A DNA stretch of 46,258 nt from a virus, in the IMG/VR virus record IMGVR_UViG_3300028610_000318, positions 1 to 46,258 of that record. The stretch is one strand, 5' to 3'. Made by a program: the position numbers and the translations under genes. Position 1 is the stretch's first letter; each line of letters begins with the position of its first letter. Below are positions 8,213-20,501 of this stretch, piece by piece. The notes under the pieces were generated by a model. It worked only from the letters and a program-made list of their open reading frames with translations. It was not told the origin of the DNA and made no database searches.

Positions 8213-8349
8213 AGAACCACGATATGTTAACTTCTGCCCGTTAACGAGGCTTTACGGGTTTGCGGTTAAACCACGGTTCCGCCAGTGCTATGCACCTGAA
8301 TCAATTTTGCTTGCCATGTGTCCAGTAAAGCTTTTGATGTCTTAACGGG
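8213..8349 (-). ncRNA. Pseudoknot-type structured RNA, copy L6
   Basis: This is the core of a 380-bp gap without genes (7980-8358). CCCGTTAA (8342-8349) pairs with TTAACGGG (8238-8245), and GCTTTAC (8325-8331) with GTAAAGC (8250-8256). Together they form a 15-bp interrupted stem. GGAACC (8276-8281), inside that stem's loop, pairs with GGTTCT (8213-8218) beyond it, giving A-B-A'-B' order. No promoter was recognised; the RNA probably arises by read-through from the gene at 8359-8688. The rest of the gap holds a small GCTAC/GTAGC hairpin and no convincing gene. Confidence 0.55.
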
Positions 8350-8358
8350 GTTCATAAT

Positions 8359-8688
8359 TTAGTCTTCTATAAAAATAACTGGCTTATCCAATTCTCTGGC
8401 GATTTCAATCTCAGCGCTTACACCAGTCGATTCTTTCCATCCTTCTTGCATAAACACCTGTACTTCATCGCACCAATCTATAAATGTTCTGTCGTACTCT
8501 TTCCAGAATTCCCACCCCTTCGGCAAATCCCCTGCCAATGCTATAGGGTGTGTATGTGATATCGGGGAAAACACCAGATTGCCTTCACGCATCAGGGCGG
8601 CGGCAACTCTATTGATTTTTTTAAATCTCGCTTTTCTGATTTCTGGATTATCGTGCGAATAAGGAGTTGCTAGATATATTTTCTTCAT
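8359..8688 (-). CDS. DUF1937 / nucleoside 2-deoxyribosyltransferase-like protein
   Basis: A 109-residue protein starting with KKIYLATPYSH, followed by 'RFKKINRVAAALMREG..VFSPISHTHP', a central Trp-rich segment and a C-terminal 'SAEIEIARELDKPV.FIE'. This is the Rossmann-like pattern of DUF1937 and related deoxyribosyltransferase-fold phage proteins, which act on nucleotides or their glycosidic bonds. ATG at 8688 follows a strong GGGGGTGGG ribosome-binding site that sits directly behind a terminator hairpin (8701-8735), so expression may depend on attenuation in the leader L2. Confidence 0.85.
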   Translation of the reverse strand: MKKIYLATPYSHDNPEIRKARFKKINRVAAALMREGNLVFSPISHTHPIALAGDLPKGWEFWKEYDRTFIDWCDEVQVFMQEGWKESTGVSAEIEIARELDKPVIFIED

Positions 8689-8700
8689 TCCCACCCCCTA

Positions 8701-8825
8701 CACAAAAGGCCCAAGTGCAATGAAGCACCTGAGCCGGATAAACCAGAACTCGCAATAGGGTAACTGGCAAGAAAACCTTCGCGAGCCGATATGTTAAAGT
8801 CTGATTGTATTTGCCAGTTAATCAT
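8701..8825 (-). ncRNA. Pseudoknot-type leader RNA, copy L2, with terminator hairpin
   Basis: The predicted transcript start is the A of an ATG at 8825. TAACTGGCAA (8811-8820) is perfectly complementary to TTGCCAGTTA (8761-8770). GGCTCGC (8781-8787), within that loop, pairs with GCGAGTT (8747-8753) outside it (A-B-A'-B'). A hairpin at 8708-8735 followed by TTTTG then stands immediately before the GGGGGTGGG ribosome-binding site of the DUF1937 gene. A 46-codon frame opens at +1 and its TGA overlaps the downstream ATG. Confidence 0.65.
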
Positions 8826-8831
8826 TATGGT

Positions 8832-8859
8832 ATTATACCCCATCACTTACATATTGCAA
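8832..8859 (-). promoter_or_regulatory. Sigma70-type promoter for L2 / DUF1937 gene
   Basis: TTGCAA at 8854-8859 and TATAAT at 8832-8837, spacer 16 bp. The predicted start lies six bases downstream of the -10, exactly at an ATG. Confidence 0.75.
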
Positions 8860-8898
8860 GGAAAATCTTTTTATTTTTTTAGTTTGGTTCATTGGTTT

Positions 8899-9168
8899 TT
8901 AGCTGTTTGCTTTCTGGTTGTCACTAATGTTTAGGTAATGCTTACCCTCCCACAGCGAATACGGCTCAGGCTCCGCTTGTGATTGAGGCTCTTTAACGCA
9001 TTTTATCAAGGGTTCTTCCGCACCTTTAAAGCCCCATTCCGTAAGCACTCTGGCGCTAAACCGGGAATTATTCTCAAGGTTGGTGAAAGTGCCAAAAACA
9101 GTAAACTTGTCAATATATCTATTATATATTTCGCCATAAGCTACCGAAGATATTTCAATCCAATTCAT
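8899..9168 (-). CDS. Small hypothetical protein (89 aa)
   Basis: ATG at 9168 directly follows a GGGGGTGGG ribosome-binding site, which itself follows a terminator-like hairpin with TTTTAAT. The same order precedes the DUF1937 gene. The soluble product has an aromatic N-terminal half and a polar tail. No family recognised. Expression is probably governed by the L3 leader. Confidence 0.7.
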   Translation of the reverse strand: MNWIEISSVAYGEIYNRYIDKFTVFGTFTNLENNSRFSARVLTEWGFKGAEEPLIKCVKEPQSQAEPEPYSLWEGKHYLNISDNQKANS

Positions 9169-9171
9169 CCC

Positions 9172-9679
9172 ACCCCCAATTAAAAGACTGGCCCAGCCTG
9201 CAAGCCAAGCCAGTCCGCTTACGGCACATCGTGGCCACTGATGAGTGCTGGGTATTAAAAGACTCCATCGATACCGATGGAGCCGTAGATTTAAGGTGGG
9301 CATGGAAAGCCTTGCTAACCACAGAAGCACCTACGGTATCAGCGCCAGTTGCATGGCGGCAACCTGATAACGGACGGTGTTGCTCCGCCATTGGCGAACT
9401 ATCGGCATCTTCTGTCTTTATGCCCATAAAAAGGCCTACCCCAAGTAAATGAGATAGGCCTAATATAAATACGAGGGTCCAATCCTGCGTATTCAATACT
9501 GCACCAATTGGCGCTGTCTGCTTGTTTTCAAGAAAGGCCCCAGTCATACTTAAACGACTGAGGCCATATTTGACAAAACTTACAAGAAGAGAACCGGCAG
9601 GAACATCCCTGTAAGTTATTGTACTTCCAATTTGTATCTGCCGATTCGTCATATAAACCTTAAATTATTAAGTATCCAT
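9172..9679 (-). ncRNA. Long structured leader RNA, copy L3, with four terminator-like hairpins
   Basis: Behind a consensus promoter, the RNA 5' end ATACTTAA (9668-9675) is complementary to TTAAGTAT (9546-9553). The latter is the loop of a 10-bp hairpin (GGCCTCAGTC 9556-9565 with GACTGGGGCC 9536-9545). A second pseudoknot is nested between them: CGGCAG 9638-9643 with CTGCCG 9595-9600, and AACTTACA 9610-9617 with TGTAAGTT 9577-9584. Three further hairpins ending in T-runs lie around 9430-9460, 9263-9290 and 9183-9215. A 165-codon frame (9155-9652) spans the region but reads through all four hairpins; I treat it as leader or chance. Confidence 0.6.
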
Positions 9680-9685
9680 GCTCAT

Positions 9686-9713
9686 ATTATACCCTATTGG
9701 TTGGGGTTGTCAA
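9686..9713 (-). promoter_or_regulatory. Consensus sigma70 promoter for L3
   Basis: TTGACA (9708-9713) and TATAAT (9686-9691) with a 16-bp spacer. The predicted +1 at 9679 is again an ATG. Confidence 0.85.
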
Positions 9714-9721
9714 GGGAAAAC

Positions 9722-9856
9722 TCAAATTTTATCATAAATTAAATAATCATACTTATCTCTGCACACTTGGCAATCGTTACATTCGGCACAAACGCATACT
9801 GAATGACACTTTTCACAATCGCCGCAGCATTGGCAGTATTCGGTTTCTTTACTCAT
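9722..9856 (-). CDS. Ten-cysteine microprotein (44 aa)
   Basis: ATG at 9856 follows a perfect GGAGGTAGT. Ten of 44 residues are Cys, within residues 8-32, mostly spaced CxxC, CxC and CC. This density suggests a metallothionein-like or multinuclear zinc/iron cluster. Its stop is upstream of the L3 promoter. No family recognised. Confidence 0.7.
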   Translation of the reverse strand: MSKETEYCQCCGDCEKCHSVCVCAECNDCQVCRDKYDYLIYDKI

Positions 9857-10023
9857 ACTACCTCCAATAATAGGGCATCCTTAATCTGTTCATCAGTAGG
9901 AATCGCCTTCTGGTTGGGAATGCGGACAATATGGTAACAATCTTTGTATAAACACATAAGCACTTTTGCACGTCCATCCCACTCCATGCAGATACGATTA
10001 CATTTTGGGCACTCATACAGCAT
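9853..10023 (-). CDS. Zinc-ribbon microprotein (56 aa)
   Basis: A 56-codon frame from ATG at 10023, with CxxC at residues 5/8 and further cysteines at 12, 24 and 29. ATGA overlap with the ten-Cys gene. It follows the structured RNA L4 directly. Unknown function. Confidence 0.7.
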   Translation of the reverse strand: MLYECPKCNRICMEWDGRAKVLMCLYKDCYHIVRIPNQKAIPTDEQIKDALLLEVV

Positions 10024-10048
10024 TTTAATTCCTTAATAATAGGGCAGG

Positions 10049-10409
10049 GCTGCGACTTAGGCGCATAGTCAACCTCGCAGCTAGTGGTAATTGGGTTTGA
10101 AAGGTAGTTGGCAATGCGCCAAAGACTTGTATACCCGCTATGCTTACGTTACGGACTCTGCCTGTAAATCTCCCCCGGCAGGACTCGAACCTGCAAAGAT
10201 TCCGGACGCTATCCAGTGCTTTTCCAGTTAAGCTACAGGGGCATAAAAAAAGTCTACTCAGCGAGGGGAGAGTATCAGACAACCCCTCACGGCAGACTTT
10301 GGAAATGCTATTCAATTGTTTCGATACTCTTTTAGTCATCTTATTCTTTCTACATGCCCTCCTAATTTAACCCAATTACCATCAGTTAACTCAAAAGTGC
10401 CATGTTCTT
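10049..10409 (-). ncRNA. Large structured RNA, copy L4, enclosing a tRNA-like gene
   Basis: TGGTAATTGGGTT (10369-10381) is perfectly complementary, over 13 bases, to AACCCAATTACCA (10085-10097), 270 nt downstream. Between them lies an inner pseudoknot: AGAGTATC 10323-10330 with GATACTCT 10269-10276, the latter inside a hairpin closed by AAGTCT/AGACTT and GAGGGG/CCCCTC. That hairpin ends in seven Ts. The tRNA-like sequence follows. Downstream, GGCGCAT (10114-10120) pairs with ATGCGCC (10060-10066) across the outer stem, and GCTGCGA (10075-10081) with TCGCAGC (10049-10055), again interleaved. The architecture recalls large phage ncRNAs found near tRNAs. Confidence 0.55.
10171..10242 (-). tRNA. 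tRNA-like gene with aberrant anticodon arm
   Basis: Acceptor GCCCCTG pairs with CGGGGGA except at the terminal G-A. The D-arm GCTT/AAGC has a GG-containing loop, and the T-arm is a perfect GCAGG-TTCGAGT-CCTGC. The anticodon arm is odd: only CTGG/CCGG pair, around a seven-base loop ATAGCGT. This would give anticodon AGC, one base out of register with standard numbering. There is no encoded CCA. It could be a non-decoding tRNA-like domain. A terminator-like hairpin with seven Ts ends three bases before it. Confidence 0.7.
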
Positions 10410-10415
10410 GCTTAA

Positions 10416-10443
10416 AGTATATACTATATTTTGGCCGTGTCAA
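10416..10443 (-). promoter_or_regulatory. Sigma70-type promoter for L4 / tRNA-like region
   Basis: TTGACA (10438-10443) and TATACT (10416-10421), spacer 16 bp, just downstream of the stop of the gene at 10459-10860. Confidence 0.65.
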
Positions 10444-10458
10444 TTAAAATCTGAAAAT

Positions 10459-10860
10459 TTATTTGCCGTGATCGAATCGCCCCTCTTCCAGTATCGCTAT
10501 TGCCTTCCCGATTCTCTCATTTAGATTTTTAGCTACAACATCTCTTTTTACTTCCGTTCTAGTAAATAAATACTTACCGTCATTATATCTTATTTTCTTA
10601 TTGTACAAAGTGAAATCGATTTTGATTTCATTGCTGTCTTCGGCCAAAAACAGAGCCATAGAGAAATCTTTGAAAGCATCCAGATATAAGTAAAGCTGGT
10701 CAAGGTTGATTATTTCCAGGTCAACCCAATCATCATCATCTTCGTCATCGGCCCGGTTAAGGATGTCGGGTAGATTGTCATGGAATTCCTTGCTTATATG
10801 CTCATGCCCTGCTGATGCGATATCCACCCAATATTCTTCAATTCTTAATGTCATATTCAT
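10459..10860 (-). CDS. Acidic hypothetical protein (133 aa)
   Basis: Start ATG at 10860 lies eight bases after a GGAG. Residues 38-46 form an Asp/Glu cluster; the C-terminal half is basic and helical. No family recognised. It is the last gene before the L4 structured RNA. Confidence 0.7.
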   Translation of the reverse strand: MNMTLRIEEYWVDIASAGHEHISKEFHDNLPDILNRADDEDDDDWVDLEIINLDQLYLYLDAFKDFSMALFLAEDSNEIKIDFTLYNKKIRYNDGKYLFTRTEVKRDVVAKNLNERIGKAIAILEEGRFDHGK

Positions 10861-11024
10861 TTCAAACTCTCCAATAATTCCCTTATTTCCTTAACTTCCG
10901 GCGAATCCGGCGAGCCACTACCTTCAATGCCTCCTATACCAGTTTGCTCGTTGCGGAAGTCCATTTCTTCAAGCATCCAGGTTAAATGGAATGCGAGTTT
11001 TTTGATGATTTCCTTGTCAGTCAT
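10857..11024 (-). CDS. Small hypothetical protein (55 aa)
   Basis: ATG at 11024 overlaps the upstream TGA (ATGA), which favours it over a GTG at 11039. It has a helical N-terminus, a Gly/Ser-rich middle and a charged C-terminal helix. Unknown function. Confidence 0.6.
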   Translation of the reverse strand: MTDKEIIKKLAFHLTWMLEEMDFRNEQTGIGGIEGSGSPDSPEVKEIRELLESLK

Positions 11025-11239
11025 TTCTTTTTTGTACACCTTTTCTCGTAACCACTAAGCACTTCCCGCAACTTTTGGTAGACAACCACATTCATAAAGC
11101 TTTCGCAGCCGCCGACAATTTTCCTTATCTTTTCAAGTTCCTTACCGCGTTCCCAGCTTTCCCGCTCAGATTCTTCCAATAGGGACTCAAGCTTCTGTTT
11201 CCTTGCTATACAGCTTTCTCTTGTGCATCTTGCTGACAT
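11021..11239 (-). CDS. Basic coiled-coil small protein (72 aa)
   Basis: Preceded by GAGGA six bases before ATG. Glu/Lys/Arg-rich helices with four cysteines (residues 5, 10, 45, 68). No family recognised. Confidence 0.6.
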   Translation of the reverse strand: MSARCTRESCIARKQKLESLLEESERESWERGKELEKIRKIVGGCESFMNVVVYQKLREVLSGYEKRCTKKK

Positions 11240-11432
11240 TGTTTTTCCTCGAAACTATTCCTTTTAATCTGCTTAACTGGTGGGCCGTGAAGCCGTGGTT
11301 CTGGCTTTGGGCCTTACGTACCAATATACGCTCGCTCGGCGACATATCAAAGCCCTGCTCGCTTATTTGGGCTAATAGAGCCTTAGCCTCGTCGTCGGGC
11401 GCGAAAGCGTCTGTGCTGGTTGTGTAGTCCAT
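11187..11432 (-). CDS. Small hypothetical protein (81 aa)
   Basis: TAATG overlap with the upstream gene supports coupled translation. It has an acidic N-terminus and a basic C-terminus with a possible helix-turn segment (SPSERILVRKAQSQNHG). It overlaps the next gene by 53 bp, so one of the two boundaries may differ. Confidence 0.55.
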   Translation of the reverse strand: MDYTTSTDAFAPDDEAKALLAQISEQGFDMSPSERILVRKAQSQNHGFTAHQLSRLKGIVSRKNNVSKMHKRKLYSKETEA

Positions 11433-11644
11433 TATTGATCTCCGAACAGGGGCATTTCAGGTTCTCTTCTGTCAAGTCCTAACTGTTTCCTTACTTCTGA
11501 ACACCATACTTTATAAGGCCACATTTTACGCTCGCCATAAGGATAGGCTTCTCTCAGAGCCTTGCGCAGTTTCTTCATATCATCGCGTCCGGTTTCTGCG
11601 ATTACTTTAACTATAATCAGCCTGCAATGATCACGCCATTTCAT
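11432..11644 (-). CDS. Conserved phage protein next to ASCH gene
   Basis: A 70-residue protein with a 'LRKALREAYPYGERKMWPYKVWCSEV' type core, a pattern that recurs in phage genomes. Many positively charged residues suggest nucleic-acid contact. Function unknown. It overlaps the ASCH gene stop. Confidence 0.75.
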   Translation of the reverse strand: MKWRDHCRLIIVKVIAETGRDDMKKLRKALREAYPYGERKMWPYKVWCSEVRKQLGLDRREPEMPLFGDQ

Positions 11645-12296
11645 AGCTCACCTTTTCAAATTCTACAACCCATACCCACGGATTTACATCCCAGCCGTAG
11701 CCACGTTTTTTGTTTATTTCGTTCCACAAAGAATGAAAAAAGGGAACTGCATGGGTTGCTTGTTGTGTTTTCATTCCCTCAGCCATAGCGTCCTGAAAGC
11801 TTATATCCTGCACCCGTTCAACTCGTACAGATTTAACTTTAAGCCATGTTTGGGCGAAGAATTTCGGCATGAACAAGGGGGATCGCTTATGATAGCCGAA
11901 GTGGAACTTATCGCGTGGAGGTATAGCTGTTGGCTTGAACAAAACTTCTCTGCCATCCTTCGGCAATGTAGGCGTGAACCGTACTTTATTCCTTTTCAGC
12001 TTCTTGCACATCTGGTAAGTATCTTGGTAAATTCCCCATTGCCAGAATACTTGTTTCACCCAGAGCAAGTCACCGGGCTTGCCGTAGGGACAATAGTCAC
12101 CCAAAACATTACGGAATACCATTTCGTTATGTCGCTCCAAATACCCACCTCGCGGTTTGTGCCAATGCCCTGAAAAATCTCTGCCACTCCCATGAATGTG
12201 AATTTCACCGGGTATTATTCTCCTCGTCTGCGTTTTCCTGCCATCAAGAATTGCTTGCACCATTTCGCCTTTGAAAAGGATTGGATGCTCTTTCAC
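11631..12296 (-). CDS. ASCH-domain-like phage protein
   Basis: A 221-residue protein starting at GTG 12296 (GTGA overlap with the upstream stop). The N-terminal 'PILFKGEMVQAILDGRKTQTRRII' type segment is the hallmark of the phage ASCH-like family, a PUA-related fold thought to bind RNA or modified nucleotides. Further support comes from a Trp-Val-Lys-Gln strand near residue 78 and a 'VKSVRVERVQDIS..DA.AEG' segment at about 155-175. Confidence 0.85.
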   Translation of the reverse strand: MKEHPILFKGEMVQAILDGRKTQTRRIIPGEIHIHGSGRDFSGHWHKPRGGYLERHNEMVFRNVLGDYCPYGKPGDLLWVKQVFWQWGIYQDTYQMCKKLKRNKVRFTPTLPKDGREVLFKPTAIPPRDKFHFGYHKRSPLFMPKFFAQTWLKVKSVRVERVQDISFQDAMAEGMKTQQATHAVPFFHSLWNEINKKRGYGWDVNPWVWVVEFEKVSYEMA

Positions 12297-12400
12297 TTCA
12301 ACACCTCCAGCAACTTCTCAATCGTCACCCGGAGAGCTTTAGGCCCTATCCTGAGATAGCTTGTTTTTTCCCGTGATGCTTTGATTTGGTTCATAGTCAT
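12293..12400 (-). CDS. Basic microprotein (35 aa)
   Basis: A 35-codon frame coupled to both neighbours by overlaps (ATG inside the HNH gene stop; TGA inside the GTGA of the ASCH gene). Basic and helical; unknown function. Confidence 0.5.
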   Translation of the reverse strand: MTMNQIKASREKTSYLRIGPKALRVTIEKLLEVLK

Positions 12401-12966
12401 AATAAGTCCTCGTATTTCTGCTTGATTGCCCTCAGTTGTTCTTTAGTTATTATCCCAGCCTCTGCTTTATCATGGCAGTCGCGGCATAGGGCAATAAGGT
12501 TTTCACTAACGTCTTTGTCTGGGTTGCCGCCCATGCCACGAGCTTCTATGTGGTGGATGTCACAGGCCACGGAGTTGCAGACTTCGCATAGAATTATGTC
12601 GGCTATTGTGTAACCGTGGTAGTCAAGATATACCCCAACATGTTTCTTCATCCCCATCTCTTTCGTGAATTTTACAATTTGCTGTTCATGTCTTTTCTTG
12701 TGACAGTCCTTACATAGAGGTACTTGAGGTACATTCAATAATCTATCAAATATCAGTTGTGTAATTCCAGTCCAGTTTATTTTCGGTTCGTGATGGACTT
12801 CCAGCTTAACTTCTTTGCCTTTTGCTGCGCTTTGTTTAACTCCACAATCTACACATTTATAGCCAGACTTCTTTAACGCCGCCGCCCTCTCCCTTGATCG
12901 CAGCCAGAGTTGCCGCAGGGCATTCTTGATTCTGCTTCTGGGCGTATTTGGTTTCTTCTTAGCCAT
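12397..12966 (-). CDS. Tandem HNH endonuclease-like protein
   Basis: A 189-residue protein with two HNH/zinc modules in one chain. The first (residues 37-90) reads CVDCG ... EVHHEPK ... LCKDCHKKRH. The second (125-175) reads CEVCN ... DIHHIEARGMGG ... NLIALCRDCHDKA. Each carries the metal-binding Cys pairs and the His-His pair; the second is the more complete. The basic N-terminus may contact DNA. It could act as a nicking enzyme in packaging or recombination, or be a homing-type nuclease. Its start overlaps the upstream stop. Confidence 0.85.
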   Translation of the reverse strand: MAKKKPNTPRSRIKNALRQLWLRSRERAAALKKSGYKCVDCGVKQSAAKGKEVKLEVHHEPKINWTGITQLIFDRLLNVPQVPLCKDCHKKRHEQQIVKFTKEMGMKKHVGVYLDYHGYTIADIILCEVCNSVACDIHHIEARGMGGNPDKDVSENLIALCRDCHDKAEAGIITKEQLRAIKQKYEDLL

Positions 12967-13198
12967 TCTTAATCTTCCCTATGCAATGCTCTTTGCAGCA
13001 AGCATACATTCCGGTTGTGTCGGCCTTGTCCGGCCAATGTATCGTGCCCTCCCTTTCAGTGTACCATGCACAATCGGTATTGCAGTAAAGAGCTTCTTTT
13101 TCATCGTGTGGGAAATTAAAGGTTTCAGGGCACAAAACCGGTATTCCATTCTTTGTGTTAACCAAAAATCCCGGTTTTCTTATTTCTACTTCTCTCAT
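12959..13198 (-). CDS. Cys-rich hypothetical protein (79 aa)
   Basis: ATG at 13198 is preferred over TTG at 13213 because AAAGGAA precedes it. CNTDC and CCKEHC motifs suggest metal binding. Immediately upstream is an 82-nt long-stem RNA (13215-13296) that could regulate it. Confidence 0.65.
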   Translation of the reverse strand: MREVEIRKPGFLVNTKNGIPVLCPETFNFPHDEKEALYCNTDCAWYTEREGTIHWPDKADTTGMYACCKEHCIGKIKNG

Positions 13199-13214
13199 TG
13201 CATTTCCTTTCAAA

Positions 13215-13296
13215 TATACGAGGGCGACGGCAACCAGTCTCCGATTTTAACGGTATCTGGCCACCACTCACAACCGCGTACCGCCGCTCTCGTATA
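13215..13296 (-). ncRNA. 82-nt long-stem structured RNA in a 5' leader
   Basis: A 16-position stem with one mismatch and one G-U joins 13281-13296 (TATACGAGAGCGGCGG, minus strand) with 13215-13230 (CCGTCGCCCTCGTATA). Inside, CCAG...CTGG and CCG...CGG form a second hairpin. The element ends about 17 nt before the ATG at 13198 and starts four nt after the tRNA-Leu-like RNA. No T-run follows, so it is not a simple terminator. A riboswitch-like or processing role is speculative. Confidence 0.6.
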
Positions 13297-13300
13297 AAAT

Positions 13301-13456
13301 GGGCAGGCAGAGATTTGCACCCTGCATGAGACTGGGGATATGCTTTTGCAGCCTCTCATTTTCATCGGTTCTTCCCCGATTCCAGCCCACCATTGATTGC
13401 ATATTAACCAATGGATTGTCCAGATTCATTAGCGTCTACCTATTCCGCCACTGCCC
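13301..13456 (-). ncRNA. tRNA-Leu-like RNA, 156 nt, with expanded central domain
   Basis: The 5' end GGGCAG pairs with the 3' end CTGCCC. The canonical leucine-type D-arm (GTGGCGGAATAGGTAGACGC) follows the 5' end, and a five-pair T-arm with loop TGCAAAT precedes the 3' end. Normal leucine tRNAs are about 85 nt. Here about 70 extra nt replace the anticodon and variable arms and contain hairpins CCATTG/CAATGG, ATCGG/CCGAT and ATGAGA/TCTCAT, plus an ATATGC/GCATAT pairing between loops. No standard anticodon arm can be drawn. It could be a tRNA-like domain of a larger RNA, a decayed tRNA with an insertion, or a tmRNA-like form. Confidence 0.6.
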
Positions 13457-13538
13457 ATTAACTTATTAAAGAACTGGGCTTCCTTGCCCTGCCTGCTTCC
13501 TACCGGCGTCATCCAGTCCGTCCTTGTGGAGATTGTAG

Positions 13539-13823
13539 TTAGAGGGGGACGATCTTGAGCGAGCCAGCCGTGTTAATTAACTCTCTATCGATGATCTTGT
13601 CTCCATCAAAGGCTGCGCTAAACAAGTTAGTCATAGGGTTTGGACTTATCCTGTCTATAGATATACCTCGCCTAATATAAACTCTTTTTCCCCAGCCCTG
13701 AAACGTAAACCTCGTCCCATCGCAAGGTACTCTGCCCGGATACCAGCCGTCACGCCCATGTTCCGAAGACGTATTTTCGGTAGGTGTCTTGGGGTTCGTA
13801 TGCGGCGGAAGCGATACAGACAC
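13539..13823 (-). CDS. Possible hypothetical protein (94 aa, weak start)
   Basis: An open frame from GTG at 13823 with no clear ribosome-binding site. The C-terminal two thirds (from about residue 26) read like real protein, with a 'RFTFQGWGKRVYIRRG' strand pattern. The first 25 residues are Pro/Thr/Ser-rich. It may be shorter than drawn or partly non-coding. It precedes the tRNA-Leu-like RNA. Confidence 0.4.
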   Translation of the reverse strand: MSVSLPPHTNPKTPTENTSSEHGRDGWYPGRVPCDGTRFTFQGWGKRVYIRRGISIDRISPNPMTNLFSAAFDGDKIIDRELINTAGSLKIVPL

Positions 13824-13840
13824 GCTTGAACCACTCGATA

Positions 13841-14479
13841 CTAGTTTCCCTGAAAAGGGCGGACTTTCACCTCTACCTCGTCCAAGTCCTTGATAGCCTT
13901 GACGCCTGTGATCTTGTTCGCGGCGATCAGAGCCTTAGCCTTGGCGTTGTTTTCGTCGAAAGCCGGAATGTCGAATGCCGAGTAGATTACACGCTTCTTG
14001 ACGGACTCGATATTCCCGTTTTCGTCTTTGATCTTTACGTTCTCTGTTACTACTGCTGCAAAAATCTCCTGTGTCTTCATGCTCATACTTCCTTTCTGAT
14101 TAGTGTTAGTTATTGGTTCGTTAGTTACTTGTTCTAATACGAAATAGGGATAATCATATCCACTTGACAAATGAATCCCACTACTCTCTAAAATCTCTGT
14201 GATATTGGCCTCAATCCCTACTTCCATCCGCTTAACCCAAGCGTTGTCCCATCCGCCTTCTCCCTCGATAGCTTCCCTCACAACCCTTACCATGTCCCCT
14301 ACCTTAAAGCCTGATTCAGCTTGTTTGCGGATATAATCGTCTTTGTCCATCTTAGGCTCCGTTTCTTTTGGTTCCCATTTGTCCCAGTTTCCGTCGTCAA
14401 CACAAGTGCAATTAGTGCAAGGCTCTTCTTTTTCCCAATCCAAATCTTGATATTTGCATGTATCACACTCTAATTCCAT
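13841..14479 (-). CDS. Fused two-part protein: Cys-rich/SH3-like module plus 81-aa C-terminal module
   Basis: A 212-residue frame. Residues 1-45 carry C5, C8, C20, C23 and C25. Residues 55-110 have a 'GFKVGDMVRVVREA...GWDNAWVKRM' SH3/KOW-like pattern found alone in other phage proteins. Residues 132-212 form a distinct alpha/beta module with its own in-frame ATG at 14086, preceded by AGAAAGGAAGT. The second module may be made both as a fusion and as a separate protein. Preceded by GGAGATAAGAC. Confidence 0.65.
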   Translation of the reverse strand: MELECDTCKYQDLDWEKEEPCTNCTCVDDGNWDKWEPKETEPKMDKDDYIRKQAESGFKVGDMVRVVREAIEGEGGWDNAWVKRMEVGIEANITEILESSGIHLSSGYDYPYFVLEQVTNEPITNTNQKGSMSMKTQEIFAAVVTENVKIKDENGNIESVKKRVIYSAFDIPAFDENNAKAKALIAANKITGVKAIKDLDEVEVKVRPFQGN

Positions 14480-14517
14480 GTCTTATCTCCAAATAAAACC
14501 CTTGCTTGATAGAAGAT

Positions 14518-14685
14518 TTAGTCTTGCAAGTCTATTTCAACATTGGCAATCAAGGGACTATCAGAAGCCTTGTCAATGCTCCGGTTCGCTTCCTCGAATA
14601 AGGCCAGTGCCACTCTCTCGGTTTCACCCTCTGGGACTATAAGGATTGTAGAAATTCTTTCTTTTAATACAAATCGTGCAATCAT
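14518..14685 (-). CDS. Small hypothetical protein (55 aa)
   Basis: ATG at 14685 lies seven bases after GGAG (an in-frame ATG at 14691 is too close). It is the first gene behind leader L1. The soluble product has an acidic C-terminal half. No family recognised. Confidence 0.65.
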   Translation of the reverse strand: MIARFVLKERISTILIVPEGETERVALALFEEANRSIDKASDSPLIANVEIDLQD

Positions 14686-14701
14686 AATCATTCTCCAATA
14701 A

Positions 14702-14789
14702 AAGTTAAGCCCCCGGACAGCTTCAACCGATCAAAGACAAAGGAGTGCCGGGGACTTGTTATGCTTGATTGTCTAAGATCGGTTTCCAT
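14702..14789 (-). ncRNA. Pseudoknot-type leader RNA, copy L1, with terminator helix
   Basis: The RNA starts with ATG at 14789. AACCGATC plus GACAA (14777-14784 and 14769-14773) pair with TTGTC plus GATCGGTT (14736-14740 and 14725-14732). The second strand lies inside the loop of a 10-bp helix, AAGTCCCCGG (14748-14757) with CCGGGGGCTT (14707-14716), which is followed by TTTT and then GGAG. A 33-codon frame opens at +1 and its TGA overlaps the next ATG. The two helices may compete, giving terminated and read-through states. Confidence 0.7.
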
Positions 14790-14795
14790 ATATAT

Positions 14796-14823
14796 ACTAT
14801 ACAACATTTTCAAGCTTTGTCAA
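14796..14823 (-). promoter_or_regulatory. Sigma70-type promoter for L1
   Basis: TTGACA (14818-14823), 16-bp spacer, TATAGT (14796-14801). The predicted +1 is the A of ATG at 14789. Confidence 0.75.
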
Positions 14824-14831
14824 TTAAATAA

Positions 14832-15041
14832 TTAAAATAAATCCGGGACAAGCCGCAACTCTGGACTTGTGAGGGAGCTTGCCCCGGTTGGCGGCGTTAT
14901 GGTGTCGTCACAACAACCACAATTTAAACAACATCTTACAACAAAGCATTTCAGCAAGCTTTCGATGGCGTTTACACGCTCCTCCAGCTTAGCTGGAACT
15001 GTAGTGTTCAAGACAATGAGTTTATGCCGCCAGTGGTTCAT
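14832..15041 (-). CDS. Cys-rich small protein (69 aa)
   Basis: ATG at 15041 shares a base with the upstream stop (TAATG). A helical middle is followed by a five-Cys cluster within residues 32-43. Unknown function; it is the last gene before the L1 promoter. Confidence 0.6.
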   Translation of the reverse strand: MNHWRHKLIVLNTTVPAKLEERVNAIESLLKCFVVRCCLNCGCCDDTITPPTGASSLTSPELRLVPDLF

Positions 15042-15457
15042 TATTCTACCTTTTCCGGTGGAGGCAATTGCACTTGCCATGTATCCATACACCAGTGATT
15101 GATATTGTTCAGCCATTCTACATATCCATCCCTGCCAATAGACTCAGACGATACAGGGTTGGGGACGAGTTTCCCGCCGATTTCTTTAGGCGTTCCGGGC
15201 AGAAACTCATCCCGTAACCACCTGTGCATACCTGCATTTGTATAAACTATCCCGCAATTAGATTTGAATTGCTCTATCATAAATTTAGTTACGGGGCCGT
15301 GCAGGTACTTGCGCATCTGGTCGTAATCCCATTCGATTCTCTTGCGAACCAATACCTCGCCATTCTTAATTTGGAGCATAGCTTTTTTGAGGCCGATCCA
15401 GTCAACATCAACTATGTGGTACGCTTCGCTTTTAAATGAGAATTTAGTCTGTATCAT
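15041..15457 (-). CDS. Conserved phage recombination/replication-associated protein
   Basis: ATG at 15457 is chosen because GGAG lies five bases upstream. The 138-residue protein has the recurrent phage pattern 'YLHGPV...IEQF... MHRWLRDEFLPG..G....P..SSES..RDGYVEWLNNINHW......LPPP', usually found near SSB or recombination genes and resembling NinB-type proteins. It lies directly behind the SSB-like gene, which supports a role on single-stranded DNA. Exact activity is not assignable. Confidence 0.6.
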   Translation of the reverse strand: MIQTKFSFKSEAYHIVDVDWIGLKKAMLQIKNGEVLVRKRIEWDYDQMRKYLHGPVTKFMIEQFKSNCGIVYTNAGMHRWLRDEFLPGTPKEIGGKLVPNPVSSESIGRDGYVEWLNNINHWCMDTWQVQLPPPEKVE

Positions 15458-15467
15458 TTCGTCTCCG

Positions 15468-15947
15468 CTAGAACGGGATATCGTCAACCGGCTTATTGTT
15501 CGGCGCGTTGCTTATGTCTGGATCGAATGGCTCGGCTGGCTGTTGTGTATTCGCTGCGTTTTGCCGAGCCATAGCATCATCGATAGTTTGTTTGTGGTTG
15601 GGATTGACTCCGACAACTTCCTCTTGCTTGATATAGACTCGTATCCCGCCCGTTCTCTTGTCGCCAAATTTCACGGTCTTATCGTTGAATAGTACAATAA
15701 CTGTCCCTATCCATTTATCGAAATCGTCTCCGCTCCCGACAATCTGGGCTATGGACTCGCCATTGACATTATTCAACACAAGAGGCTTGGGTGTTTCGTG
15801 GAAGTTGAGGATGTACTTTTCGTCGGCAGGCTCATTGTCCCTTGAGACATCCTCCAACTTCCATCCCGCGATAGTCACCTGAATAGCAGGTTCGCAATCC
15901 TCTTTTGTTAGGTACTTACTGTTCTTTAAATCTTTCAATCCTGGCAT
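15468..15947 (-). CDS. SSB-like single-strand DNA-binding protein with DDIPF tail
   Basis: A 159-residue protein (ATG 15947, eight bases after AAGGA). The 'YLTKEDC...V.IAGWKLEDV' start, central 'PLVLNNVNGESIAQIVGSGDDFDKW.G' and 'VKFGDKRTGGIRVYI' strands fit a widespread phage OB-fold-like family. The linker is Gln/Pro/Asn-rich, and the last residues DDIPF match the host-SSB tip that recruits repair and replication proteins. It probably coats ssDNA and taps the host replisome, which fits the absence of phage replication enzymes. Confidence 0.75.
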   Translation of the reverse strand: MPGLKDLKNSKYLTKEDCEPAIQVTIAGWKLEDVSRDNEPADEKYILNFHETPKPLVLNNVNGESIAQIVGSGDDFDKWIGTVIVLFNDKTVKFGDKRTGGIRVYIKQEEVVGVNPNHKQTIDDAMARQNAANTQQPAEPFDPDISNAPNNKPVDDIPF

Positions 15948-15989
15948 GTTCATGTTCCTTTCAATTCTTGTTCTTATTCGCGCCTGTGC

Positions 15990-16127
15990 CTACGTTGGCA
16001 GTGGCTTGTTATTATAGCATTCTTCACATATTCCGTCTTCGTCAACATCGACATCCTCCCTGCCACAGTTACCGCAATCACCGCCTGTTGTCCCTGTCGC
16101 TCTTGTGTGTGCGTCCCAGTCGTTCAT
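15990..16127 (-). CDS. Zinc-ribbon microprotein (45 aa)
   Basis: ATG at 16127 with GGAG seven bases upstream. CGNC and CEEC pairs form a minimal zinc ribbon. It overlaps the 3' end of the out-of-frame gene 16078-16242 by 50 bp. Confidence 0.65.
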   Translation of the reverse strand: MNDWDAHTRATGTTGGDCGNCGREDVDVDEDGICEECYNNKPLPT

Positions 16128-16242
16128 TTTCTAACTCCAATTCTGTCATAATTACAGGTTTTCTTGGGTTAAAGCCAGCACCTTGCCAGTGCTGCTCACG
16201 TTTGGTTTTAGGGTTTGGGGGTGAGATTCTCAAGTCTATCAT
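16078..16242 (-). CDS. Possible overlapping small basic protein (54 aa)
   Basis: An ATG at 16242 opens a 54-codon frame that spans the otherwise empty 80 bp between two genes and overlaps both. The product is strongly basic with a 'NPKTKREQHW' segment and an acidic helix. The ribosome-binding site (AAAGGG) abuts the ATG, which is too close, so the start is uncertain. Codon pattern in the gap looks protein-like. Confidence 0.4.
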   Translation of the reverse strand: MIDLRISPPNPKTKREQHWQGAGFNPRKPVIMTELELENERLGRTHKSDRDNRR

Positions 16243-16792
16243 CCCTTTCTTGTAAATGTTTTAATTTTCGTATAGCTCCAGATTCTAGTTGCCCTACTCT
16301 TGCTGGTGATAACTTCATAGCCTTTGCTGTCTCTATCAGGCTTAACCCAACTCTGTTTTCAAATCCGAATCGTAACTTTAGCACTCTGGTTTGGGCTTCT
16401 GTTAAATATTTAAAATGCTCTTTGATAATATGAGATACAGCATCTTCTATCAATATACTTTCGTCGGGGCTTGGAAGAATAAAGTTATGTTGCCTGCAAC
16501 CTGATTCGAGTAACACTTTTGGGGATATACTGAAAGTCTTTTCAATGGTTTCGGTTCGGTGCTTCACGAGTTCTGGCGTCATTATATCATCAGGTGATAC
16601 ACCCATTCTTGCAGACATCGAAAGAACTCTATCTTCATTGAACGAGGCAGGATAACAAAGTTTTTCTAGGGACATCCATGCGCTTTTTGGTATACCGACA
16701 GCCTCCGCAGCTTCGCCTTGTGTGTAATCTCTTTCTTGTCGCCAAGCCAGCATTGCATCATTCCGAAGACTTAGCCTTGCCTGCAACCTCAT
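16208..16792 (-). CDS. HTH (Xre-type) fused to sigma70 region 4: phage transcription regulator
   Basis: A 194-residue protein. Residues 12-75 form an Xre/Cro-type helix-turn-helix (LAWRQERDYTQGEAAEAVGI...). Residues 128-182 match sigma70 region 4 (LTEAQTRVLKLRFGF......SLIETAKAMKLSPARVGQLE..AIRKLKHL), the part that reads -35 boxes. Regions 2 and 3 of a full sigma factor are absent. A protein of this kind may redirect host RNA polymerase or act as an activator/repressor of phage promoters. The only obvious transcription regulator in the genome. Confidence 0.8.
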   Translation of the reverse strand: MRLQARLSLRNDAMLAWRQERDYTQGEAAEAVGIPKSAWMSLEKLCYPASFNEDRVLSMSARMGVSPDDIMTPELVKHRTETIEKTFSISPKVLLESGCRQHNFILPSPDESILIEDAVSHIIKEHFKYLTEAQTRVLKLRFGFENRVGLSLIETAKAMKLSPARVGQLESGAIRKLKHLQERDDRLENLTPKP

Positions 16793-16983
16793 TATTTCTC
16801 CTTTTCACATTCTACACAAAACCAGTTCTGTTCGCCACAAGGCCCTTTCCACCAATTCATTCTACCATGCTTGGCGCAGGTGGGTATGTCCTGGATTTCA
16901 TCGTCTTTCAGGCCTACAGTCCAATCCTTTGCCGATTCCCTGTCACGCTCTCTTGCGTAGCCTTGTTGTTCTATGAGGGCCAT
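16792..16983 (-). CDS. Zinc-ribbon small protein (63 aa)
   Basis: ATG at 16983 shares a base with the upstream TAA. A helical, charged N-terminus is followed by CxxH...C...CxxC, a zinc ribbon. It ends one base before the HTH-sigma4 gene start, so the two are probably co-expressed. Confidence 0.65.
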   Translation of the reverse strand: MALIEQQGYARERDRESAKDWTVGLKDDEIQDIPTCAKHGRMNWWKGPCGEQNWFCVECEKEK

Positions 16984-17444
16984 TATTTGCCGATTTTCCA
17001 GACAGGCTTGTCTATACAATTATAAGGTATTACGGTTTCGCCGTTGTTGATTCTGACGTTTCTATCAAATCCATCTTTCTTCGGAAGCTTCATTACGGTA
17101 GTGGATTCATCTAGGTAAGCCCTTGTAGAGAGAAATTCCCCCGGCTTCAATTCCTCGTACTTGCAGGGGGTGAGGGGGAGGCCCTCTTGTATCCGCTTGA
17201 GTTCAAAGCCAGCCGTTGACTCCACTTCAAATACTTTTCCGGCGAGACAATAGCCCAACATCTGCTTGCCGTCATTAAATAACAATCCATGCACTTTGCC
17301 TGACTTTCCTACCCAGAACTTAATGCCTGTCGGTGTGAGAAGTTGCGGTTTAGGCTTGTTTGCTTTCGCCATTTCCTCGCGTCCTATTTTATCACAGTGC
17401 CTTTGTAATTCATAAATCAGTTTTTGCATTGTTTCTGAGTTCAT
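16983..17444 (-). CDS. Hypothetical protein (153 aa)
   Basis: GGAG lies eight bases before ATG. N-terminal helix, then a beta-rich body with several Gly/Lys strands. No family recognised. Confidence 0.65.
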   Translation of the reverse strand: MNSETMQKLIYELQRHCDKIGREEMAKANKPKPQLLTPTGIKFWVGKSGKVHGLLFNDGKQMLGYCLAGKVFEVESTAGFELKRIQEGLPLTPCKYEELKPGEFLSTRAYLDESTTVMKLPKKDGFDRNVRINNGETVIPYNCIDKPVWKIGK

Positions 17445-17447
17445 TAT

Positions 17448-17756
17448 TCACTCCGGCCATAATTCTAATGCAACTTTATCTCTATTTTGCAAGGCTATTT
17501 TAGCCCTGTACTTTCTGTCGGTTTCAGGCCCCCAATACCCGTCCGGCTCTGCGCCACACCATATCTGCATTTCCTTGATAGTATGATATACGGGGTGCGG
17601 GCTGATCTGATTTAAGGAGGAGAAATTTGCACCGCACCCCGAGGAAGAAAACTCGCCCATTGCGGGCGTAGGAGACTGTCTTTCCGTAGATACACCAAGC
17701 CAAAACATCGCAAAAAAACAAAGGAATAAAATTACCATTTCTATTATCGTTTTCAT
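17448..17756 (-). CDS. Membrane-anchored protein with peptidoglycan-binding-like motif
   Basis: ATG at 17756 is preferred to the upstream start at 17774. Residues 4-24 form a hydrophobic segment (signal anchor). After a Ser/Pro linker, residues 60-85 carry 'IKEMQIW.GAEPDGYWGPETDRKY', resembling the core repeat of PG_binding_1 domains. It might tether a lysis or entry function to the cell wall. No catalytic domain is attached. Confidence 0.6.
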   Translation of the reverse strand: MKTIIEMVILFLCFFAMFWLGVSTERQSPTPAMGEFSSSGCGANFSSLNQISPHPVYHTIKEMQIWCGAEPDGYWGPETDRKYRAKIALQNRDKVALELWPE

Positions 17757-18241
17757 TTCCCGCTCCTGAAACATACCCAGCCGAGAGTAGCGGGCTTAAA
17801 ATCTCCTTCGTTCCGATGGTAGGCAGTAAATACACCGTGTTCGCTAACCCATCCCATAGGAGAATCCCGCATTTCTTCCAGCCTCTCTTTGAATACATAG
17901 CCGCAGCAACCGTACCGAGGAGCAAAATCGAGAACATACCAATTGTCGTCACGTTGAAATCGAAAGTGCCTTTCACTGTTTCCAAAATAATCAAATTTCA
18001 CCTCGCACAACTCATACCCCTCAAATACGGGCTTGTTTGGTTCTGGCTGGTAGTCTTTGTGGATGCGGTAGACGTCGGCTAGCCACAACGCATCGTTGTC
18101 TTTGCTGGCCCAACCAGTCTCCATGCGATAGATAATACTGGCAGGGTTTTCTTTAATAATCACCCGAATAAAATCCTGATCTTCCACCGATAAAGCATAA
18201 AATCCAAGATCGTTCTCTTTCAATCTGTCAATCTGGTTCAT
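17753..18241 (-). CDS. Hypothetical protein (162 aa)
   Basis: Well-formed ribosome-binding site (AAGGAGAAGAA). Soluble protein with many aromatic residues and a 'RYGCCGYVF' segment near the centre. Its stop overlaps the membrane-anchored gene start by four bases. No family recognised. Confidence 0.7.
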   Translation of the reverse strand: MNQIDRLKENDLGFYALSVEDQDFIRVIIKENPASIIYRMETGWASKDNDALWLADVYRIHKDYQPEPNKPVFEGYELCEVKFDYFGNSERHFRFQRDDNWYVLDFAPRYGCCGYVFKERLEEMRDSPMGWVSEHGVFTAYHRNEGDFKPATLGWVCFRSGK

Positions 18242-18274
18242 TTCTTCTCCTTACGATAAGCCCAATGCGGGTAG

Positions 18275-18676
18275 TTATCCTTTTACAACTGAAGACTTGT
18301 CTCTAAGGGATGGGCTAACAATTCTATCAGTAATATAGCAAATACAACCGCACGTTTCTTTGCCTATTTCTTTTATCCATGTTTTGCGAATCTGGAATTT
18401 AACCAATTCGCGGTAACTTGTAATCCACCCGCGACGGAATAATTTTTTGGCAGCACTTTTCGTTTTAAATGAATGAAAACCCCACAGGTTATCAACGTCG
18501 TATATATCCTGATTTCTTGCTGTATTGAGCCCAACCCTGAACCTTCCGCCATAACATAGAGGATGGTAGCTGCCCCTGTACTTGTTCACAACCTTATATA
18601 CCGTAATCAATCCATTCGGCAATTTTGATTTCATCCTTTTTTGAGTTTTCTTCTTAAATGTCATTCTTATACACAT
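18275..18676 (-). CDS. Basic hypothetical protein (133 aa)
   Basis: GGAG lies ten bases before ATG at 18676; an internal ATG at 18664 is also possible. Very Lys/Arg-rich N-terminus and a Tyr/Trp-rich beta segment. Possible nucleic-acid binding. No family recognised. Confidence 0.6.
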   Translation of the reverse strand: MCIRMTFKKKTQKRMKSKLPNGLITVYKVVNKYRGSYHPLCYGGRFRVGLNTARNQDIYDVDNLWGFHSFKTKSAAKKLFRRGWITSYRELVKFQIRKTWIKEIGKETCGCICYITDRIVSPSLRDKSSVVKG

Positions 18677-18745
18677 TTATCTCTTTCTCCTATAAATTAG
18701 CCCCTGCCCACAAAAATCTGCCAAGACGAGGAGCGGGTTTTCATT

Positions 18746-19402
18746 TTAATCTTCCGCTATAATAAAGCCAAAAGGAGGTACTCCGTCCGCAATTGACTGC
18801 CAATGTTCAAGTTGCCCTGCATGGTAGTAGGGTTTTTGCGGCGCAAACTCAAATCCAGACGCCTTTTTTTTGTCGAAAGCCTCCCATTCATCACCAGTGC
18901 CACAGCCGAGTCTTTCGTAATGCTTTGGCCGGTCGTGATAATCAGGATATTTTTCAACAAAGACAGCCAACAATTTTTCGTATTCTGCTATGTCCGCAAC
19001 ATATTGACTCGCCACCTTGTTATCTTCCATCAACAACCTATTCGCTTCTTTTTGGAGAGATTCAAACGTAGACTTGCTGATGGTTTTTTGGAATTTGTGC
19101 TCATATTGAGCATATAGCATATTATCATAGTCGGTAATTTTCATGCCAGTTTTATTGCTACGATAGTTCCATTGCCGTATAAACTCCCACATAACCGCCC
19201 CTGCTTGAAAACCGGTAATCCCAGCGTTGCCGTGTTTGTTTGCTGCCCACGCCGCCGCTACAGCGGATGCAGCTACACTACAGCATATAGAACCGTAGCC
19301 ATGAGATTCATCCATCATACCATTGATAAAATCTGGCAATTCTTCAATCGTGTGCTTATCAAGTTGGTTATAATACTTATCTCTGAATTCTTTTTCTTCC
19401 AT
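18746..19402 (-). CDS. Conserved phage protein with Ala-rich helix (218 aa)
   Basis: Residues 37-80 contain an Ala-rich helix followed by 'GITGFQAGAVMWEFIRQWNY', then 'YDNMLYAQYEHKFQKTIS', a pattern recurring in phage proteins of unknown role. Ribosome-binding GGAG lies before ATG at 19402. It is the first gene of the long minus-strand accessory operon and follows leader L5. Confidence 0.75.
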   Translation of the reverse strand: MEEKEFRDKYYNQLDKHTIEELPDFINGMMDESHGYGSICCSVAASAVAAAWAANKHGNAGITGFQAGAVMWEFIRQWNYRSNKTGMKITDYDNMLYAQYEHKFQKTISKSTFESLQKEANRLLMEDNKVASQYVADIAEYEKLLAVFVEKYPDYHDRPKHYERLGCGTGDEWEAFDKKKASGFEFAPQKPYYHAGQLEHWQSIADGVPPFGFIIAED

Positions 19403-19422
19403 CTTGCTATTCTCCTAATATA

Positions 19423-19511
19423 CAGCCCTTTCCCGCTCCGGTGACTGCTAAGGCATGGATTGGGTTGGGGCTGGTGTTTTGAAATTCGTAATGTACCTTA
19501 GCAGTGTTCAT
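19423..19511 (-). ncRNA. Pseudoknot-type leader RNA, copy L5
   Basis: The RNA would start at ATG 19511. ACTGCTAAGG (19496-19505) is perfectly complementary to CCTTAGCAGT (19444-19453). CAGCCC (19468-19473), in the loop, pairs with GGGCTG (19423-19428) beyond it (A-B-A'-B'). No T-run follows the B helix, so here the knot would act on translation rather than termination. A 34-codon frame opens at +1 and stops at the ribosome-binding site of the next gene. Confidence 0.65.
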
Positions 19512-19517
19512 GTATAT

Positions 19518-19546
19518 AGCTTACATCACGCTTGGGGGTTTGTCAA
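19518..19546 (-). promoter_or_regulatory. Sigma70-type promoter for the minus accessory operon
   Basis: TTGACA (19541-19546), 17-bp spacer, weak -10 TAAGCT (19518-19523). The predicted +1 is the ATG at 19511, matching the spacing in the other leaders. Divergent to the plus-strand promoter at 19599. Confidence 0.55.
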
Positions 19547-19578
19547 ATTAAATCTGAGAATAGCACGAATTTTTTATT

Positions 19579-19588
19579 CGTATGCGCT
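19579..19588 (+). promoter_or_regulatory. Putative operator CGTATGCGCT (copy 1)
   Basis: One of three exact copies of this 10-mer. The other two (41910-41919, 41974-41983) also lie at a promoter. This copy is eleven bases upstream of the -35 box of the methyltransferase promoter and between the two divergent promoters. Confidence 0.5.
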
Positions 19589-19598
19589 CGTTTTTGGC

Positions 19599-19626
19599 TT
19601 GACAAAGTTTCGGTAGGCACTATACT
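19599..19626 (+). promoter_or_regulatory. Sigma70 promoter for methyltransferase operon
   Basis: TTGACA (19599-19604), 16-bp spacer, TATACT (19621-19626). The predicted +1 at 19633 is an ATG. Confidence 0.85.
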
Positions 19627-19632
19627 ATAGTT

Positions 19633-19713
19633 ATGTTAGTACATGAAACAATCAGCCATTCAAGTCCCACGGGCGCACATTCTGTGCATACTAACATGCC
19701 TGTGGGACTTTTT
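19633..19713 (+). ncRNA. Pseudoknot-type leader RNA with terminator, copy L+
   Basis: The RNA begins ATGTTAGTA (19633-19641). This is the exact complement of TACTAACAT (19689-19697), which lies inside the loop of a 9-bp helix, AAGTCCCAC (19662-19670) with GTGGGACTT (19702-19710). That helix is followed by a T-run and then GAGGTG, the methyltransferase ribosome-binding site. A 30-codon frame starts at +1 and its TGA (19723-19725) overlaps the ribosome-binding site. This is the clearest terminator-type copy of the family. Confidence 0.75.
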
Positions 19714-19727
19714 ATGTTGAGGTGAAT

Positions 19728-20501
19728 ATGCTGGCAATAACTGAGATAAGTAAGCTATACGGTGAGATTCAAGACGGGCTTATGACGAGTCTCTGCAAAA
19801 TAATCCGCATTGGGGAGATATTGACAGAGCAAAAAACGCGGATAAGGCACGGCGAATGGATACGATGGGTTGAGGAAAATCTACCATTTGACAGAACACA
19901 GGCGTCAAGATACATGAAGGTTTACCACAACCGAGACAGGCTAAATGATGAGTCGCCTCAACATTTGACTGGGGCTATGGCCGCTCTTATAAGCCCCAAG
20001 AAAGCCCACGTATCCCATAATTCAGGCGAAAACGAATGGTACACGCCCCCTCGATTCATAGAGGCTGCGAGAAATGTAATGGGCCACATAGACACCGATC
20101 CAGCCAGTAGTCCGATAGCAAACGAAACTGTTGGGGCAGAAGAATATTTCACCGTTGACGATAACGGCCTCGAAGAAGAATGGGGCGAAAAAGTCTGGCT
20201 AAACCCGCCTTATTCACAACCAGAGATATCTCAGTTCTGCGATGCCTTGATAGCAAAGCTGGTATCAGGAGAAGTGAAAGAAGCTTGTGCATTAGTCAAT
20301 AACGCTACAGAGACAGTATTCGGGCAGCAACTACTTAGTTTATGTTCGGCGGTATGTTTTCCATCGGGCAGGATTAAGTTTCTTGATAAGCAAGGTGACG
20401 AAGGCGCACCGCTACAAGGGCAGATGGTAGTTTACTTCGGTGAAGAAAACGGTAAATTCTGTAGTGAATTCGCCGAATTTGGAGTATGCCTGAATGGTTG
20501 A
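19728..20501 (+). CDS. Phage Dam-type DNA N6-adenine methyltransferase with N-terminal DUF3102-like domain
   Basis: ATG at 19728 follows GAGG. About 257 residues. Residues 1-85 (a 'GEWIRWVEENLPFDRTQASRYM' type helix-turn) match the DUF3102-like DNA-binding module. Residues 95-235 form the phage Dam fold with EWYTPP near 103, DTDPAS near 122 and the catalytic NPPY at 159-162. It methylates adenine in DNA, presumably to protect phage DNA or regulate phage promoters. Overlaps the next gene by eight bp, so the two are coupled. Confidence 0.9.
   Translation: MLAITEISKLYGEIQDGLMTSLCKIIRIGEILTEQKTRIRHGEWIRWVEENLPFDRTQASRYMKVYHNRDRLNDESPQHLTGAMAALISPKKAHVSHNSGENEWYTPPRFIEAARNVMGHIDTDPASSPIANETVGAEEYFTVDDNGLEEEWGEKVWLNPPYSQPEISQFCDALIAKLVSGEVKEACALVNNATETVFGQQLLSLCSAVCFPSGRIKFLDKQGDEGAPLQGQMVVYFGEENGKFCSEFAEFGVCLNG

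Follow-up and report, generated by a model that had tools for sequence, protein, structure and literature searches.

We analyzed the viral record IMGVR_UViG_3300028610_000318 of IMG/VR over its whole length of 46,258 bases, referred to below as the window, for a set of RNA leaders, each of which is preceded by a promoter-like sequence and followed by a gene that has a Shine-Dalgarno sequence of its own. The ends of the window (1-143 and 46115-46258) are repeats of one another, which would suit a circular or terminally redundant genome. Among the proteins it encodes are a terminase, a portal protein and major head and tail proteins, to which the nearest annotated phage proteins are about 20-35% identical; no close relative was found in IMG/VR, where the best portal match reached 48%. 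The leaders share two interleaved helices, A:A' and B:B', arranged in the order A-B-A'-B'. Seven such pseudoknots (L+, L5, L1, L4, L3, L2 and L6) had been claimed in an original prediction, and we found the helices of L+, L5, L1, L3 and L2 where they had been placed, while L6 proved marginal and L4 failed in the form described.

On the plus strand, the L+ promoter (TTGACA-16-TATACT, 19599-19626) is followed, with its AUG 6 nucleotides (nt) after the -10 box, by a leader open reading frame (ORF) of 30 codons (19633-19725) that stops 2 nt before the ATG of the main gene, which encodes a DUF3102 plus Dam-type DNA methylase (19728-20501). The L+ pseudoknot (19633-19710) consists of A (19633-19641), the motif ACAATCA (19648-19654), B (19662-19674), a hairpin P3 (19675-19687), A' (19689-19697) and B' (19698-19710), after which comes TTT. 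All remaining leaders lie on the minus strand. In L5, a 34-codon leader ORF (19511-19407) that stops 4 nt before the main ATG (19402) spans a pseudoknot at 19505-19423 (A 19505-19496, B 19473-19468, A' 19453-19444, B' 19428-19423). L1 has a TTGACA-16-TATAGT promoter (14823-14796), a 33-codon leader ORF (14789-14688) whose stop overlaps the main ATG (14691) as ATGA, and a pseudoknot at 14784-14707 (A 14784-14777, B 14757-14748, A' 14732-14725, B' 14716-14707).

The transcript previously called L4 starts from a TTGACA-16-TATACT promoter (10443-10416), and although the pairing originally described for it was rejected (335 of 400 shuffles were equally good), it carries a pseudoknot farther on that had not been reported, which we call L7 (10330-10249; A 10330-10322, A' 10277-10269). 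The second helix of L7 is formed by B 10300-10294 with 10290-10283 and by B' 10268-10261 with 10255-10249, and seven T residues follow B'. A probable further pseudoknot, L8, lies at 10120-10049 (A 10120-10114, B 10081-10075, A' 10066-10060, B' 10055-10049), and both are covered by one leader ORF of 104 codons (10339-10025), which ends 1 nt before the ATG at 10023. Within this ORF, directly past the L7 T-tract, there is also a tRNA-Ala gene with the unusual anticodon AGC (10243-10169).

L3 combines a TTGACA-16-TATAAT promoter (9713-9686) with a pseudoknot at 9647-9577 (A 9647-9638, B 9617-9606, A' 9600-9591, B' 9588-9577) and a leader ORF of 165 codons (9652-9155) that overlaps the next ATG (9168). 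The same ORF contains, on the same strand, four strong sites consisting of a hairpin and a T-run (9565-9536, 9461-9432, 9284-9261 and 9216-9185). In L2, a TTGCAA-16-TATAAT promoter (8859-8832) precedes a 46-codon leader ORF (8825-8685) whose stop overlaps the ATG of the DUF1937 gene (8688) as ATGA, and which spans both the pseudoknot (8820-8747; A 8820-8811, B 8787-8779, A' 8770-8761, B' 8755-8747) and a terminator-like hairpin (8735-8708). The sequence sharing between L2 and L3 that had been noted earlier is correct. In addition, TTAACATATCG occurs at 8795 and at about 8223 on the minus strand, and is thus common to L2 and the L6 stretch.

We compared each leader on energy with 400 dinucleotide shuffles. 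None of the 400 shuffles matched the observed energy for L+, L5, L1, L3, L2 or the 10330-10261 element, whereas 4 of 400 did so for the 10120-10049 element and 25 of 400 for L6, in which the distance from A to A' is 105. In L5, L1, L3 and L2, the best pair of interleaved helices is both strong and balanced; in L+, the two perfect helices share one base and were trimmed. A weak element at 9252-9186 was rejected, as 352 of 400 shuffles were as good, and the promoter at 41960, used as a control, gave an energy reached by 38 of 400 shuffles. On and downstream of this minus-strand promoter (41978 and 41917), and just upstream of the L+ promoter (19583), the sequence GCGCATACG / CGTATGCGC recurs, a possible candidate operator.

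Scanning the whole window with free geometry and G-U pairs allowed yielded about 20 sites at or below -33 kcal/mol, a modest excess over the 9.4 +/- 3.2 found in shuffles. As a window scanned in this manner holds many chance pairs, we restricted the geometry to the range seen in the leaders (A to A' 45-58 nt, A to B 25-42, A' to B' gap no more than 16). Under these limits, exactly six sites were detected on both strands of the window, namely L5, L1, L3, L2, 10330 and 10120, all of them leaders, whereas 60 shuffled windows averaged 0.87 sites and never had more than 4; L+ was missed because its two helices overlap by one base. Since the limits were fixed after the leaders had been seen, we consider promoter-like sites in other viral DNA the fairest outside control: none of 5340 such sites in 2.17 Mb reached -34 kcal/mol, while 4 of 114 in the window did. 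The folding program used cannot draw pseudoknots, and minimum-energy folds consequently display one helix per pseudoknot. Taken as a structural claim, the pseudoknot leaves us in virtually no doubt.

While the element had been described as a family within one genome, at least five other IMG/VR contigs also carry it, with the same fold written in different letters. L026 and L002/L269 were reached through a DUF1937 protein. In L026, the helices come in the same order between a promoter and a Dam-type gene, a relative of which (50% identity) stands behind L+; L002/L269 has a 13-bp A helix and a 16-bp B helix with ATACAATC between them. A pattern scan with ATACAATC then led to L310, L347 and L337, matches that, having been selected by the motif, cannot prove it; a second copy was found on the same L347 contig. 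A scan by structure, made without reference to promoter or motif, gave 11 sites in total versus 4 in reversed-sequence controls, and included two more copies in the L310 virus, L433 5445(+) and 12437(-), the latter with ACAATCC 17 nt from its AUG. Endonuclease genes follow the element in L310, L347a and L347b. Apart from L002/L269 and L026, close relatives selected by portal (best 48%) or by DUF1937 shared no leader. A search of viral contigs for a promoter plus ACAATCA gave no member among the matches listed (at least 120), none of 60 stretches obtained from bacterial genomes with a promoter plus AATACAATCA was convincing, and the strict knot scan found no match at six named-phage or virus loci encoding HNH relatives of the L310 protein.

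The earlier proposal that pairing is kept while the sequence changes was borne out wherever copies could be aligned. L310 and L347a, each of which precedes a related HNH-type endonuclease of 149 amino acids, align with few gaps, and all 28 pairs of A, B and the small hairpin P3 with its GNRA-type loop are kept, with seven double compensatory changes and none broken; slid controls were 32-48% paired. In the window, the paralogues L2 and L3 keep 19 of 19 pairs, with five double compensatory changes. The shuffle figures for these two comparisons, 4 of 500 and 16 of 500, are modest because each rests on two sequences. A structured RNA family that keeps its pairing amid changing sequence is thereby supported, as it also is by the lack of any Rfam match. 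The leader peptides of L310 and L347a are unconserved, so that what appears to be kept is the RNA and not the peptide.

In the listed leaders, the AUG lies just 5' of helix A or within it, and in 7 of 10 leaders examined it follows the assigned -10 box by 6 nt. The RNA is predicted to start at or beside this AUG in L+, L1, L2 and L5. Among 610 strong promoters from fetched viral loci, 11.8% have an ATG at the same offset, far above the share at neighboring offsets, and, judged from these sequences, leaderless starts seem common in phages.

Contrary to the original description of the stretches as non-coding, they contain open short ORFs, and L3 lies inside one (9652-9155). In 11 of 14 leaders, the frame that begins at the leader AUG stays open as far as the main start, compared with 2.9 expected from shuffles, an arrangement like that of a leader-peptide transcription attenuator, in which a translatable leader ORF lies between promoter and gene and overlaps the terminator. 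Most leader ORFs end between -4 and +4 nt relative to the main ATG, and B' lies 6-20 nt upstream of the main Shine-Dalgarno sequence. Programmed frameshifting was rejected: measured against the leader ORF, the main genes lie variously in frames 0, 1 and 2, so that no single shift fits. At the 3' side, a T-tract lies directly past B' in L+, L269, the three copies of the L310 virus and both copies of L347, and in L7 it is reached through an outer stem, so that a stem and T-tract are present in about eight copies overall.

We take these leaders to act in cis, within their own mRNAs, and to form a phage-borne RNA family unmatched in Rfam. The sequence shows a promoter of the sigma70 type, an AUG located at or close to the predicted RNA 5' end, a pseudoknot of the H type (A-B-[hairpin P3]-A'-B') that starts at this AUG or just past it, frequently a T-tract past B', and a short knot-spanning ORF that mostly ends no more than 4 nt from a start led by a Shine-Dalgarno sequence. 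Regulation of accessory genes, as originally suggested, is a fair inference from the position of the leaders; the overlying ORFs and terminator-like 3' ends, which that suggestion had missed, point to a more specific mechanism. An AUG buried by or beside A:A', a terminator-like B:B' and a leader ORF whose end meets the main start are in keeping with a switch that the first ribosome controls. A ribosome initiating on the 5' AUG before A' is synthesized would keep A and B unpaired, RNA polymerase would then pass the terminator-like B:B', and the ribosome leaving the leader ORF could reinitiate on the main gene. Without a ribosome, A:A' would cover the start codon or close beside it, the pseudoknot would be completed and transcription would stop, leaving a sealed RNA of about 90 nt. 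The targets would be accessory genes in the window (Dam-type methylase, DUF1937 and others) and endonuclease genes in two other viral contigs. Translation of a leader has been proven elsewhere to open a terminator (PMC3894217). There is also a broad proposal that ribosomes reinitiate downstream of leader ORFs (PMC4833913).

Such a translation-gated attenuator or switch, every functional step of which we infer, is the best model we can offer and may well be right, although we stop just short of calling it probable. Several observations weigh against it. In L3 and L7 (10330), 33 and 76 nt, respectively, separate the promoter from the leader AUG downstream of it, so that a position at the front end of the RNA does not apply to these two; they are also long and carry much of the ORF statistic, which without both is 9 of 12 versus 2.9. 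L026 has a short leader ORF (10 codons), the one in L347b stops within B', and that of L347a is in frame with the main gene. Moreover, a T-tract is absent from L5, from the L2 knot, where a separate hairpin follows, and from L8.

The placement of helix A at the predicted 5' end in L+, L1, L2, L5, L026, L310 and L347 could also mean that the pseudoknot is a stability element that shields the RNA 5' end from decay enzymes, with the leader ORF merely delivering ribosomes to the main gene. We regard this as unlikely, as a simple hairpin would suffice for that role, L3 and L7 have a longer unpaired 5' part, and the T-tract past B' would be left unexplained. That the element serves as an operator bound by a protein repressor or activator of phage or host origin, comparable to T4 gp32, with ACAAUC conserved in the first loop as the contact, seems to us similarly improbable: ACAATC does occur 15-18 nt after the AUG in L+, L1, L2, L269 and L433 12437(-), the last two having been found without the motif, but it is absent in L5, L026, L347b and L433 5445, the helices have no common sequence, and we identified no candidate binder.

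The leader might instead be a unit of promoter, small RNA and terminator that acts in trans, the downstream gene being expressed by read-through, and the distance of about 90 nt from promoter to T-tract, with both ends base-paired, would suit such an RNA. However, the main Shine-Dalgarno sequence and start come immediately afterwards, with the leader ORF reaching into both, and the helices vary so freely that no antisense stretch is conserved, all of which makes a trans-acting RNA quite improbable. Finally, ATACAATC resembles a -10 box and occurs early in the predicted transcript of several leaders, where TACAAT at about +16 might make the polymerase pause, in the manner of a -10 element, ahead of the terminator. 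Such pausing close to the promoter, coupled with antitermination, is known from lambda Q; the motif is not universal here, and helix A and the leader ORF would go unexplained, so that we give this explanation very little credence. Returning to the ribosome-gated switch, its most far-reaching form would make the leaders a new class of cis-regulatory phage RNA, with a single 5'-end pseudoknot that both hides a leaderless AUG and forms a terminator, the loading of the first ribosome deciding downstream expression, and the whole serving as a portable module placed before unrelated accessory or endonuclease genes; this is a possibility that we would sooner doubt than assert.

Elsewhere in the window, we observed a stand-alone MutS domain I protein of 106 amino acids (42461-42781, plus strand) and a protein that unites an Xre-type helix-turn-helix with sigma70 region 4 (16792-16208, minus strand). 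A tRNA-Leu-like sequence (GGGCAGTGGCGGAATAGGTAGACGC ... GGTGCAAATCTCTGCCTGCCCA) with about 70 additional internal bases lies at 13450-13300 on the minus strand; it was called by neither ARAGORN nor Rfam, and its 3' half is overlapped by an interleaved helix pair (13335-13224).

Consistent with the earlier statement that no named RNA family was known to have this arrangement, a search of Rfam (4227 families, gathering threshold) found only a tRNA in the window and nothing in five loci with members, and permissive searches returned chance-level matches only. In the open-access literature searched, the arrangement is described nowhere. The known kind to which the leaders belong is that of leader RNAs with a leader peptide, while the RNA family itself is unmatched in Rfam. 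Although the order A-B-P3-A'-B' is similar to that of hepatitis delta virus (HDV)-like ribozymes (P1-P2-P3-P1'-P4-P2', with a short J1/2 and a catalytic J4/2), we ruled these out: A' and B' are mostly 0-8 nt apart, P4 is missing, A and B are 14-22 nt apart, and Rfam gave no match.

The repZ and repA leaders resemble ours in combining a translated leader peptide, an RNA pseudoknot and translational coupling to the next gene; there, however, the pseudoknot activates the main gene under the control of an antisense RNA, is not at the RNA 5' end, and is not known to have a terminator-like 3' helix. Pseudoknot leaders of IncI-alpha (ColIb-P9) repZ and of IncB and IncL/M repA are the subject of titles cited in PMC10724649. 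In S. gallolyticus pil1, a leader ORF likewise lies between promoter and gene, and translation through a T-run stem-loop terminator permits transcription onward (PMC3894217), but pil1 has no pseudoknot, its leader ORF has its own ribosome site, and its phase variation is repeat-driven. Moreover, pil1 concerns single genes, whereas here a family is reused within one phage. RNA structures also stand just before T4-type homing endonuclease genes (PMC2988022), as the element does in L310, L347a and L347b, but those are hairpins, most of which hide the ribosome site.

Another phage likeness is the pseudoknot of T4, T2 and RB69 gene 32 (PMC3014915), a coaxial H-type pseudoknot upstream of the ribosome site in a phage mRNA leader, which differs in serving one gene only, in being bound by the gene's own product as repressor, and in having neither leader ORF nor T-tract. 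No single-strand binding protein acting on its own leader is evident in our set, in which the main genes encode Dam-type methylase, DUF1937, HNH-type and unknown proteins. The helices of the gene 32 pseudoknot are, in addition, much smaller. If the mechanism proposed here is true, the leaders would form a compact switch that reads leaderless translation initiation; as an RNA family, they add one absent from Rfam, reused several times in one phage and common to distant phages. A 2010 review considered the T4-type gene 32 pseudoknot perhaps still the sole viral one in translational autoregulation (PMC3014915), a picture that would become broader with a pseudoknot leader that occurs in several copies and is overlain by a leader ORF.

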